Source: Bacteroidaceae bacterium (lineage in GTDB: Bacteria > Bacteroidota > Bacteroidia > Bacteroidales > Bacteroidaceae). Taken from it: a DNA stretch of 64,000 bases. The stretch lies in NCBI GenBank assembly GCA_017522915.1, contig JAFWXX010000034.1:1-64000 (forward strand), read 5' to 3'. A program made the translations under genes and the position numbers. This document shows positions 2,594-5,391 of the stretch, in pieces. Within the stretch, counting starts at the first letter, position 1. Each line of letters starts with the position of its first letter. Below the pieces are notes generated by a model. It was not told where the DNA came from. It made no database searches and saw only the letters and a list, made by a program, of their open reading frames with translations.

Positions 2594-2761
2594 ATGAAGA
2601 AGACTTATGTATCACCTCTTATGACAGAGGTAAACGTAGAAGCAGAGCAGATGCTTGCAGCTTCATTGAAAATGGATAATGAAAAGACAGTAGATACCTC
2701 AACTCCTGGCAGCCAGCTTGGCGGCGGCCACAGAGGTGAGTGGGGTAACTTATGGAAGTAA
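2594..2761 (+). CDS. Small 55-residue peptide, MKKTY family, unknown function
   Basis: The frame runs ATG to TAA with 55 codons. It starts MKKTYVSPLMTEV and ends GGGHRGEWGNLWK. It has an acidic, Met-containing first half with no hydrophobic signal peptide and no cysteines. The middle is Thr/Ser-rich, and the tail is Gly-rich with Trp, Arg and His. Short proteins opening with MKK-[ST]-Y-x-x-P are common beside surface-protein genes in Bacteroidales and have no known function; that recollection is from general knowledge, not a search. It lies 81 nt after the sorting-domain gene in the same direction and ends inside a strong terminator hairpin. The leader-like first half and Gly-rich tail resemble a peptide precursor, but no modification enzyme is nearby. 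Confidence 0.65.
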   Translation: MKKTYVSPLMTEVNVEAEQMLAASLKMDNEKTVDTSTPGSQLGGGHRGEWGNLWK

Positions 2762-2809
2762 TAAAACAAGGAAACGGAAGCGATGCTTCCGTTTCCTTGT
2801 TTTATTACT
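2757..2809. terminator. 25-bp perfect inverted repeat enclosing the peptide stop codon
   Basis: The arms at 2757-2781 and 2785-2809 are perfectly complementary around the 3-nt loop GAT. The outer right arm reads CCTTGTTTTATTAC, so plus transcripts end in a T-rich strand. The TAA of the small peptide (2759-2761) lies within the left arm, so a ribosome finishing translation would cover the stem base. Confidence 0.7.
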
Positions 2810-2823
2810 CGACAATACCGCTA

Positions 2824-2871
2824 GCAATAGGTCAAGCGTAGCATCGCTGTAAGTGATGCCGCTTGGGTTGC
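2824..2871 (+). repeat. 48-nt stem-loop element, copy A
   Basis: The stem has GCAA/TTGC, a TAGGT/GG internal loop, CAAGCG/CGCTTG, a TA bulge on the left arm, GCATC/GATGC, a GCT/AGT top and a GTA loop. It has exactly the same length and layout as the copies at 2951, 5014, 5176 and 5309. See the finding on covariation. Confidence 0.7.
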
Positions 2872-2950
2872 GAAAAGGCGGTGTTGTCAAATAATAAGAA
2901 GAATCCGACATCACGAGCGGAACATCGTGTAGCGGAGGGAGTTGCTGTTC

Positions 2951-2998
2951 ACAATCCACGCGGTGCAACTTGCAGATATACTATGCTTGACTATTCGC
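2951..2998 (-). repeat. 48-nt stem-loop element, decayed copy E
   Basis: Read on the minus strand it keeps the same 48-nt layout: GCGA/TTGT, CAAGCA/CGCGTG, TA bulge, GTATA/TGCAC, TCT/AGT and loop GCA. It has four mismatched pairs, so it looks like a degenerate copy. It faces copy A with 79 nt between them, like the two halves of a REPIN doublet. Confidence 0.5.
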
Positions 2999-3073
2999 AG
3001 TTCGTGTTATCGAACCTTTCTCCTTTCTCCTTTCTCCTTTCCTCTGTACTCTCTCGTCTGGGTTGCGACTAAA

Positions 3074-3105
3074 TTTGCAATTTATGGATTAAGAGTGTAT
3101 TTTTG
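3074..3105 (+). promoter_or_regulatory. Bacteroidetes-type promoter for the 3181 gene
   Basis: A -33 TTTG at 3074-3077 and a -7 box TATTTTTG at 3098-3105 are spaced by 20 nt. The predicted start near 3112 gives a leader of about 70 nt. The remaining intergenic DNA from 2810 holds the two stem-loop elements and no gene. Confidence 0.7.
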
Positions 3106-3180
3106 CAATCAGTGGATTGCTGAATATTTCAATCAACTACAGAGATTCTGTCAACAAACAAAACACAAAATAAAAACGCT

Positions 3181-4986
3181 ATGAAAAATTTTACTCTTTT
3201 TCTGGCATTTGTGATGTCGATGCTGTCATTCACAAATGCAAAGGCTGACAAGCTGCAGATAAGACTTGCTGAGTCAACCATATACGCCTATCAAACTCAT
3301 TCAACAGAAAATGTCTTTGATGGTAAGTACGACACGAAATTTTGGACAAGTGATAGTCCCAAGGCTGGTTATACATTTACTGTCTATTTGAGCAGTTCAG
3401 CGAATGTGGGTGATATAAAGCTCTATTTTGACAATGGTGACCTGCCGTCTGATGGCACGGTTATTGAGGTCAACGAGAATAACAGCGGTAACTGGATTCA
3501 AGTAGGCGAACCATTGAATGGGGTTCAGGCGAATGATGTCGTTACACGCAATGCCGGTGGTGTATATACAAAACAGATTAGGCTAAGGTTTACACAGGCT
3601 TCAGCGTACTGGTTCCGGTTGCTGGAGTTTGAGGTATATGAGTATGAGGTTGCTATTCAGGAGCGTACAATTTCTGCTGTTGCAGGAGAGGGTGGCTCTG
3701 TAACAATCAACGGCGGCAGCGAGGCTGTCACAAGTACGGAGGAGATACAGCTTGTTGCGGCTCCCGATTACGGCTATAAGTTTGTCCGTTGGACAGTAGG
3801 CGGCGAAGAGGTTTCAACATCGGCTGAATATACCGACAATACCGATGGCAACAAAGAGTATGTTGCCGTGTTCAAGAAATTTGAAGATACCGACGAGTGG
3901 TATGCTGCTATCGACAAGCCTACATTTGGCAAGGCCGGTGGTACACACGTTATTTCGGCTGTGGAATTCAATGGCGAGAATCTTCCTGGTTTTACTTATA
4001 CCAAGGGAACCACATCCGCTTTCCAGAACGAAGCCTTTTCTGTTGTTCCCGGTGAGACATATTCTCTCACTTTGACATACGAACTGCATTGGGGCGATAT
4101 AGCTCTTTACCAGATTGACTGTGACGGTACAGAGAAGAAATATGGTTACTATACCTGCCAGTGGGAGGCTAATGGCGACCCTTACGAAATATTGGGCCGT
4201 AATGCAGATTTAATGTGCGAGGAGTTCGGTATCAACGATTTTGCAACTCTTGAGCACACATCGGGGGAGACAAACTATATCGAGTTGCCATATAAGGTTA
4301 CGGTGAGTGAGAACCACAAGCCTGGTGACCTCATCGTTGTACGTGCAATGATAGACAAAGGTGACAATGGAGCTTATGGTAAGGGTATAGAAGAGGGCGG
4401 ATGCTTTGATATCCTCTTTGTTGTTGCTGAAAAGGAGCCCGTCGAGGATACAAGTGAATGGTCAACATTCTATCAGCCTTATCCTGTGGCGCCTCCTGAA
4501 GGCGTAAATACTTATATTGTAACAGCCGCAGCAAGTGATTATGTGACTTTGACAAGATTTGAAGGAACAATTCCTGCTAATACAGCTGTGATTCTGAATA
4601 ACGGAGAGCCTAAGGGTGAAGCTGTCGATGTTGATTTCAGCACCAACTTGCTCAAGGGTACGACTGTTGATACATATCTTAATGAGGAAGCCTATGTCCT
4701 TTCAAAGGTTGACGGTGTTGTCGGTTTCTACAAGGCAGAAATGGTCGATGGCACCTGGTTGAACAACGCTGCCAAGGCATACTTGCCGGCAAGTGCAGTT
4801 CCTGCTGCAGCTCAGGGTGTTGCAAGCTTCAGTTTTCGTTTCGGGGATGGCACTACAGGCATAGAGAAGATAACAGATAACAGAGAACAGAGTACAGTTA
4901 TCTATGACCTTACAGGTCGCCGTATCGAGGCTATTACAGTTCCTGGCATCTACATTGTAGGTGGTAAGAAGGTTTTGGTCAAGTGA
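3181..4986 (+). CDS. Secreted discoidin-like/InlB-repeat protein with sorting-like C-terminus
   Basis: A 601-residue protein with a signal peptide (about 1-22, ending NAKAD). Residues about 30-155 look like an F5/8 type C (discoidin-like) carbohydrate-binding module, with NVFDGKYDTKFWTSD as the recognisable opening. Residues about 160-235 match the divergent InlB B-repeat type (AGEGGSVTINGG ... GYKFVRWTVGG). A long unassigned region follows. The C-terminus (IYDLTGRRIEAI ... GGKKVLVK) is the same sorting-like domain as in the 542 gene, and the preceding YLPASAVP module is also shared. It is likely exported and may bind glycans. It has its own promoter. Confidence 0.75.
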   Translation: MKNFTLFLAFVMSMLSFTNAKADKLQIRLAESTIYAYQTHSTENVFDGKYDTKFWTSDSPKAGYTFTVYLSSSANVGDIKLYFDNGDLPSDGTVIEVNENNSGNWIQVGEPLNGVQANDVVTRNAGGVYTKQIRLRFTQASAYWFRLLEFEVYEYEVAIQERTISAVAGEGGSVTINGGSEAVTSTEEIQLVAAPDYGYKFVRWTVGGEEVSTSAEYTDNTDGNKEYVAVFKKFEDTDEWYAAIDKPTFGKAGGTHVISAVEFNGENLPGFTYTKGTTSAFQNEAFSVVPGETYSLTLTYELHWGDIALYQIDCDGTEKKYGYYTCQWEANGDPYEILGRNADLMCEEFGINDFATLEHTSGETNYIELPYKVTVSENHKPGDLIVVRAMIDKGDNGAYGKGIEEGGCFDILFVVAEKEPVEDTSEWSTFYQPYPVAPPEGVNTYIVTAAASDYVTLTRFEGTIPANTAVILNNGEPKGEAVDVDFSTNLLKGTTVDTYLNEEAYVLSKVDGVVGFYKAEMVDGTWLNNAAKAYLPASAVPAAAQGVASFSFRFGDGTTGIEKITDNREQSTVIYDLTGRRIEAITVPGIYIVGGKKVLVK

Positions 4987-5013
4987 TTGGCCAAAAGCTC
5001 GACAGCATGAGCG

Positions 5014-5061
5014 GTGAAAGGTCACGCGAAGTGCGGACGTAGTTCGCACCGCGTGGGTCAC
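5014..5061 (+). repeat. 48-nt stem-loop element, copy C
   Basis: GTGA/TCAC, AAGGT/GG internal loop, CACGCG/CGCGTG, AA bulge, GTGCG/CGCAC, GAC/GTT top and GTA loop. It begins 27 nt after the 3181 gene. An additional outer stem GACAGCA (5001-5007) with TGCTGTC (5071-5077) lengthens the structure. Confidence 0.7.
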
Positions 5062-5101
5062 CAACAGCGAGTGCTGTCAAGGGGGAAATATAATCGCGTA
5101 C

Positions 5102-5278
5102 TTGTCATTTCGAACAGATGTGAGAAATCTCTTATTTTGCAATATTTTGAGATTCATTGATAATGCTGCCTTGCCGTAACCCACGCGGCACAAACTTCGT
5201 CTGTGCTTCGCGTGACCATTTACTACCAGCATTATCTAAACCTGCGGCTTTCGTCGCTTCGCTCCGTCGGAATGACAA
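5102..5278. repeat. MITE-like intergenic element with imperfect terminal inverted repeats
   Basis: TTGTCATTTCG (5102-5112) and CGGAATGACAA (5268-5278) are inverted with one mismatch. Inside, GATAATGCTG (5159-5168) and CAGCATTATC (5227-5236) are a perfect second inverted pair that frames stem-loop copy D. There is no transposase gene. The rest of 4987-5473 contains stem-loop copies C and B and a hairpin at 5392, with no gene. Confidence 0.5.
5176..5223 (-). repeat. 48-nt stem-loop element, copy D
   Basis: On the minus strand: GTAA/TTAC, ATGGT/GG internal loop, CACGCG/CGCGTG, AA bulge, GCACA/TGTGC, GAC/GTT top and GAA loop. It points opposite to its neighbours C and B. Confidence 0.7.
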
Positions 5279-5308
5279 AACACAGTTTTGTTATCGACGA
5301 GTTTTGCA

Positions 5309-5356
5309 GCAATATGTCAAACGTAGCATAGCCGTAGGTTATGCCGTTTGGGTTGC
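5309..5356 (+). repeat. 48-nt stem-loop element, copy B
   Basis: GCAA/TTGC, TATGT/GG internal loop, CAAACG/CGTTTG, TA bulge, GCATA/TATGC, GCC/GGT top and GTA loop. It is the closest relative of copy A: there are seven differences over 48-52 nt, and six of them make three compensated base pairs. Confidence 0.7.
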
Positions 5357-5391
5357 GAAAGGTAAAACGAGTCTATGGACTGATTTGTTAT

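Follow-up and report, generated by a model that had tools for sequence, protein, structure and literature searches.

Paired-hairpin repeats of a Bacteroidaceae genome, best read as a new REP/IS200-IS605-like family

The hairpin repeats described here are best read as a new family resembling REP sequences and IS200/IS605 ends, one without the enzyme, the tag and the doublets by which REPINs are defined. The mobile unit, roughly 95 nt long, consists of hairpin H followed by the larger hairpin E, and we consider it fairly probable that the copies belong to a non-autonomous family moving as folded single-stranded DNA, like REP sequences and IS200/IS605 ends, with a guide that varies. Structure, covariation, spread, insertions at empty sites, a junction rule, guide–target complementarity and head-to-tail arrays can all be read from the DNA itself and together suggest this view.

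An earlier, sequence-only reading of the window (the whole stretch of 64,000 nucleotides analysed) had described five copies, A to E, of a 48-nt stem-loop. Re-reading the sequence recovered all five at their positions and on their strands. Copies A, B, C and D form the fold proposed for them (−19.7 to −22.4 kcal/mol, z of about −3.8 to −4.4, equalled by no shuffle), and copy E is decayed, as claimed, with no fold found. The 48-nt limit had to be given up, as the motif is only the inner part of a hairpin of ~82 nt, hairpin E (in copy A, the earlier-noted 2824-2871 is this inner part); the stem runs outward for 11 bp beyond the motif and is followed by a C.A mismatch and then about 4 locus-specific bp (Table 1).

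Table 1. Hairpins H and E of the five window copies (the caret marks a junction)
Feature	Position	Strand	Remarks
Copy A, hairpin H	2757..2809	+	25-bp perfect palindrome; 3' foot abuts the large hairpin exactly; GGA^A before
Copy A, hairpin E	2810..2889	+	C-GACA...TGTC-A; 98 bits; followed by A (TCA^A)
Copy E, decayed hairpin E	2951..3012	-	24 bits; 3' side swapped for another repeat (AACTCCCTCCGC..)
Copy C, hairpin H	4970..4999	+	5' arm formed by the coding end (KKVLVK-stop) of gene 3181-4986
Copy C, hairpin E	5000..5079	+	85 bits
Copy D, hairpin E	5158..5237	-	91 bits; mid-way in a larger MITE-like repeat
Copy D, hairpin H	5238..5250	-	AAGCC GCA GGTTT, 13 nt
Copy B, hairpin H	5272..5294	+	ATGACAAAAC ACA GTTTTGTTAT; sister copies have the same hairpin
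Copy B, hairpin E	5295..5374	+	86 bits; decayed right end, GTCTA in place of GTCAA

The surroundings of these copies hold several other elements. The copy A palindrome doubles as the terminator of a small upstream gene. A small gene of about 55 aa at 2595-2762, whose stop codon overlaps the hairpin before E, belongs to a family ending in GEWGNLWK or GQWGDLWQ that is also found in L111, L096, L120, L100 and L005, several members carrying an E unit at the 3' end. The MITE-like repeat around copy D spans about 5107-5282, with the ends TTGTCATTTCGA...TCGGAATGACAA, and exists in versions without the D unit in L129, L059 and L109. A second palindromic repeat (ACTCCCTCC...GGGAGT) lies at about 2908-2950, taking the place of the right side of copy E, and elsewhere, in about a dozen E hairpins, occupies the apical loop with the stem intact (L049:3888-4018, L041:4135-4258, L038:1529-1653, L162:3441, L131:6256, L108:4934 and 2287, and L151:658).

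Hairpin E is irregular; its internal loops are conserved, and two G-T wobbles are fixed. From 5' to 3' it reads C-GACAnnnnnnn, 2 nt, GCAA, 4 nt, T C R C R C G, WA, G nnnn G nn and the loop, and its 3' half reads ... CC GCGTG G, G, TTGC, 6 nt and nnnnnnnTGTC-A. The compensatory changes seen by the sequence-only reading in the four good copies were borne out, with 76 of 76 stem cells paired and both partners altered in 10 of 19 pairs (slid controls, 0-2). Among 45 different copies of this genome, 93.4% of 1340 cells are paired and 23 of 30 pairs show double changes. Double-change cells numbered 282, compared with 89 in shuffled and 23-61 in slid controls, raw counts that the kinship of the copies inflates. 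Because of this inflation, we built a tree-aware null from 106 thinned copies, which were aligned without structure and had their substitutions re-dealt along the tree; with our own R-scape-like script (not R-scape itself), 19 pairs reached E<=0.05, of which 16 fall within the drawn structure, corresponding to 16 of its 30 structural pairs. The search that supplied the copies used a structural model and so favours the structure, but the first four copies display the pattern already. The G-T wobbles also proved to be fixed in strand, at columns 25-59 in 45/45 copies and at columns 39-47 in 44/45, and this fixation of T.G and G.T indicates that the fold of hairpin E is under selection as a single strand.

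A covariance model built from the four window copies yielded 72 matches in the genome, at least 71 of them at E<=3e-4, so the family is not limited to five copies; the 71 are a lower bound for this 2.4-Mb, 92%-complete MAG. About 10 of the copies across the genome are identical or near-identical 84-nt copies of the D type, and contigs C26, C29, C50 and C52 of this assembly (G000) break off in or next to D-type copies, which probably makes the count too low. With the full-length model, copies were present in 37/37 genomes of the genus (1 to >70 each) and in 0/24 genomes of other families. Outside the genus, three members of one other genus of the same family have one copy each, and two members of one genus in another family have 2-3 copies each. 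An exact-pattern scan of 85,000 species genomes assigned 78 of 80 loci, among the matches listed, to Bacteroidaceae/Bacteroidales MAGs, mostly from ruminant gut; a match in Rhodanobacter was discarded as chance, having no covariance-model match. None of 2.9 million viral contigs matched the exact pattern, and a phage origin was rejected on this basis. An E copy of 68 bits also lies on a contig binned as Lachnospiraceae (L139:717-801), for which misbinning is likelier than transfer, since other stretches of the contig match repeats of Bacteroidaceae loci. The earlier view of a repeat family held by compensatory changes, folding as a single strand and REP-like in location and copy number is thus supported, and neither outcome named as refuting it, confinement to these copies or lack of significant covariation, was observed.

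The second component of the unit emerged from a scan of the flanks. Upstream hairpins peaked exactly at the base before E, where a score >=9 ended in 51/193 copies, and stems scoring >=8 ended at E's foot in 22% of copies versus 0.7% of shuffled flanks; in the downstream-flank scan, symmetric hairpins did not rise above background. Hairpin H often has 5 bp and a 3-nt loop and reaches up to 25 bp, and in many copies it measures just 13 nt (ATGCC GCA GGTAT, AAGCT GAA AGCTT). Neighbouring copies <400 nt apart were head to tail in 70 cases and opposite in 8, with a spacing peak at 95-96 nt and many units ~96 nt apart. The alternating orientation noted by the sequence-only reading is therefore real within the window but, across the family, a local accident.

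Comparison with sister loci revealed how the units are inserted. The filled site L130 reads GCCGTCA, the unit AAGCTAGTAGTTT CGATAAAGCC...GGCATTACTCA, then ATGAGCAGG, and the empty site L172 reads GCCGTCAATGAGCAGG, corresponding to a single clean insertion without duplication and with H inside the unit. In L146 the unit lies within a serine-recombinase remnant (CATTTGA^AAGTTT) at a point that is uninterrupted in L245 and L248, and the insertion relative to L245 is exact, without target-site duplication. For D-type copies, window copy D included, the MITE-like empty site (compared in L129, L059 and L109) differs by one or two junction bases. A MITE of a DDE transposon was rejected as an identity for the unit, the empty sites showing no duplication and neither target-site duplications nor terminal inverted repeats being found. 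On the left, the unit enters after N(G/C)A, giving N(G/C)A^A, and (G/C)A^A occurs in 44 of 71 unique units compared with 18% of background positions followed by A. The right end is TCA^A in nearly all copies tested, which had been selected for CAA at the end.

Immediately 5' of E, a variable NNN and then the T of the T-C foot (NNNT) constitute a putative guide, complementary both to the first bases of H and to the right-flank target bases, which start with A (ANNN). For 53 units whose right flanks are unique and not followed by another unit, Watson-Crick complementarity between guide and target exceeded that of re-dealt flanks at positions 1-3 (p<=0.0005 each), counted beyond the initial T-A pair, which hardly varies and is in part a product of the selection; no excess was detected at positions 5 and 6. 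Since the guide can pair with both the start of H and the right target, both junctions can be written N(G/C)A^ANN, in which ANN is the part that pairs with the guide. At a minority of loci (L049, L111 and terminators), complementarity between the 5' foot and the host extends over 16-25 nt. In L049, the 25 nt next to E match the coding end of the gene perfectly in inverted orientation, and E is followed by a further version of that gene end; L111 has gene-end copies of a small peptide gene on both sides of E. Unlike the clean events, both loci therefore contain a longer duplication of a gene end. In L033 and L203 the long complement lies in the loop of a tRNA-Leu terminator, and in L112 and L033 the 5' foot is an inverted copy of 13-17 bp. 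At such loci, either the units ferry gene ends from one related gene to another or some step copies sequence.

These features fit a mechanism in which the H+E unit would move as folded single-stranded DNA. The guide NNNT at E's 5' foot would pair leftwards with the beginning of H and rightwards with the target ANNN, and a Y1-HUH-type enzyme, or a functional equivalent, would recognise E and cut these sites on single-stranded DNA. The TCA^ANNN at the end of a unit would then offer a new target to a further unit carrying the same guide, which could explain the head-to-tail arrays at ~96 nt. Where the units of an array are nearly identical, as in L201, recombination may instead have duplicated them in tandem. 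The mobiliser would act in trans and may now be lost, sporadic or of an unrecognised kind, the genomes being draft MAGs. The single-strand chemistry, the trans-acting enzyme and the growth of arrays are steps that we infer. Three observations speak against this mechanism: Y1_Tnp is missing from the genome itself and from most congeners, including copy-rich ones; the complementarity that varies is found 3' of the apparent junction, whose position is ambiguous by one base; and a short guide alone fails to explain host complementarity over 16-25 nt.

The search for a mobilising enzyme covered the genome, the genus and the surroundings of the copies. The 92%-complete MAG contains 0 Y1_Tnp genes and no RAYT, contrary to what a REPIN family would lead one to expect. 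Within the genus, PF01797 (Y1_Tnp) is present in 3/37 genomes and absent in 34/37, and a RAYT ortholog is present in 2/37 (congeners G004 and G019, each with a RAYT-type protein) and absent in 35/37. The copy-rich G011 and G020 lack Y1_Tnp, as far as draft MAGs, which can miss genes, allow, and no copy adjoins any congener Y1 or RAYT gene whose surroundings were checked. Clustering of 706 neighbouring ORFs revealed no recurrent mobiliser beside the copies: the clusters comprised secreted or surface proteins, guaA and orthologous neighbours, with no transposase. Reverse transcriptase and IS110 were rejected as mobilisers, as the presence of neither tracks copy number. The serine-recombinase remnant near guaA copies was likewise rejected, being patchy (17/61 genomes) and serving as an insertion target. 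Serine recombinases, mostly a C-terminal helix-turn-helix remnant, lie near the guaA 3' end with E copies in L240, L165, L268, L137, L146 and L045; most of these loci adjoin guaA, a feature common to the genus of another family. A different hairpin repeat (CACGAACCCACT..CTCGGCAAAG..CTTTGCGCTCG; L193:6680-6760 and L194:880-1040, tandem in L194) occupies the insertion point that the L146 E unit has in the remnant, and the two families may hence share one mobiliser.

Among known systems, IS200/IS605 ends mobilised by TnpA-Y1, such as IS608, are alike in having a hairpin on one strand, at whose 5' foot a short guide can pair with the junction, no target duplication (in our cleanest events), a short fixed target and strand-biased placement. 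The right end of IS608 is TCAA, as in the H+E units. The units differ in that hairpin E has ~82 nt compared with 20-25 nt, one guide seems to serve both ends, and a transposase gene lies neither within nor near the element. The register also differs from that of IS608: the IS200/IS605 guide pairs 5' of the cut, whereas the varying complementarity of the H+E units lies 3' of the junction. Group IIC introns sit directly behind terminator hairpins, a placement that the units share, but the units are too short for intron domains and occur without a linked reverse transcriptase. In IS200/IS605 ends and REPs, where cleavage takes place is set by a guide tetranucleotide immediately 5' to the foot of the hairpin (PMC6006769). 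One TnpA-REP cuts CT and CA, and a single guide-base change redirects it to GA (PMC8266576), which may be compared with the CA and GA of the H+E junctions. BrickBuilt of Porphyromonas gingivalis, a MITE with 23-nt tandem units (PMC4596501), represents short, non-autonomous intergenic repeats of Bacteroidales that sometimes have internal tandem units, as here; unlike MITEs, the H+E units show no target-site duplication in clean events, no transposon-type terminal repeats and a conserved single-strand fold. A literature search on Bacteroidales REPs returned nothing relevant.

Several other explanations were weighed against this mechanism. A true REP/REPIN family whose RAYT was missed by the draft genome would account for high-copy, extragenic, imperfect hairpins with bulges near gene 3' ends, for their compensatory changes and for the RAYT-type protein of G004 and G019. 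We regard it as very improbable, because the ortholog is missing even from copy-rich congeners, no copies surround the two RAYT genes, and the hairpin is two to four times longer than most REPs. The REPIN-doublet reading fell on similar grounds: inverted doublets are lacking, neighbours being mostly head to tail (70:8), and in place of a fixed GTAG/GTGG or CGTC tag the foot is NNN-T-C, with a variable NNN that changes by subfamily along with the target. An attC-like site for a tyrosine recombinase, in an integron-like array without genes, shares with the units an imperfect hairpin with fixed bulges, variable ends and head-to-tail arrays of diverse units. It is hardly credible, however, as the consensus ends show no RYYYAAC...GTTRRRY R boxes, the units are not separated by cassettes, and junction complementarity is locus-specific.

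Hairpin E might instead act as a structured RNA in transcripts at gene 3' ends, through terminator read-through, RNA stability or protein binding, and be spread by other repeats. Consistent with this, the upstream gene is on the same strand in 138/170 scorable copies, the G-U wobbles are fixed, many copies sit right behind a terminator, and copies lie 3' of guaA in several congeners and in the genus of another family. Yet the strand bias counts copies rather than independent events and would also fit insertion at DNA hairpins, copies also lie inside pseudogenes and MITEs, their flanks and any promoter are not conserved, and the precise clean insertions, the junction rule and the target complementarity are signs of mobility. 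An Rfam RNA family was rejected, with no match at gathering score; the low-E-value matches fell far under gathering scores and lay mostly on the terminator palindrome. We therefore judge an RNA role rather improbable. Quite improbable, in our estimation, is template copying, in which snap-back synthesis, template switching during replication or a reverse transcriptase would insert E and copy the host into the adjacent inverted repeat. The inverted host copies at L049, L112 and L033, the gene ends flanking E in both L049 and L111 and a reverse-transcriptase ORF in this genome (G000:C43:1055-1882, 609 aa) favour it, but the target is not the source of H in the cleanest event (L130/L172), and some congeners with many copies, such as G011 and G020, yielded no reverse transcriptase. 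A possible, if unlikely, reading is a self-targeting single-strand element with a non-Y1 enzyme, in which one guide would set both unit ends and the target; guides grown to 16-25 nt, as inverted copies of a host gene end, would let units home to the same site in related genes.

Movement of the H+E unit as folded single-stranded DNA thus remains our preferred reading. Guide complementarity that depends on the landing site provides a natural series of retargeted hairpin elements, useful for studies of site choice in single-strand transposition. Since 37/37 relatives carry copies and at most three a Y1 enzyme, the missing mobiliser can be sought directly, which bears on how REP-like repeats persist without a resident RAYT. 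In this ruminant-gut lineage, the repeats break assemblies and alter the 3' ends of genes.
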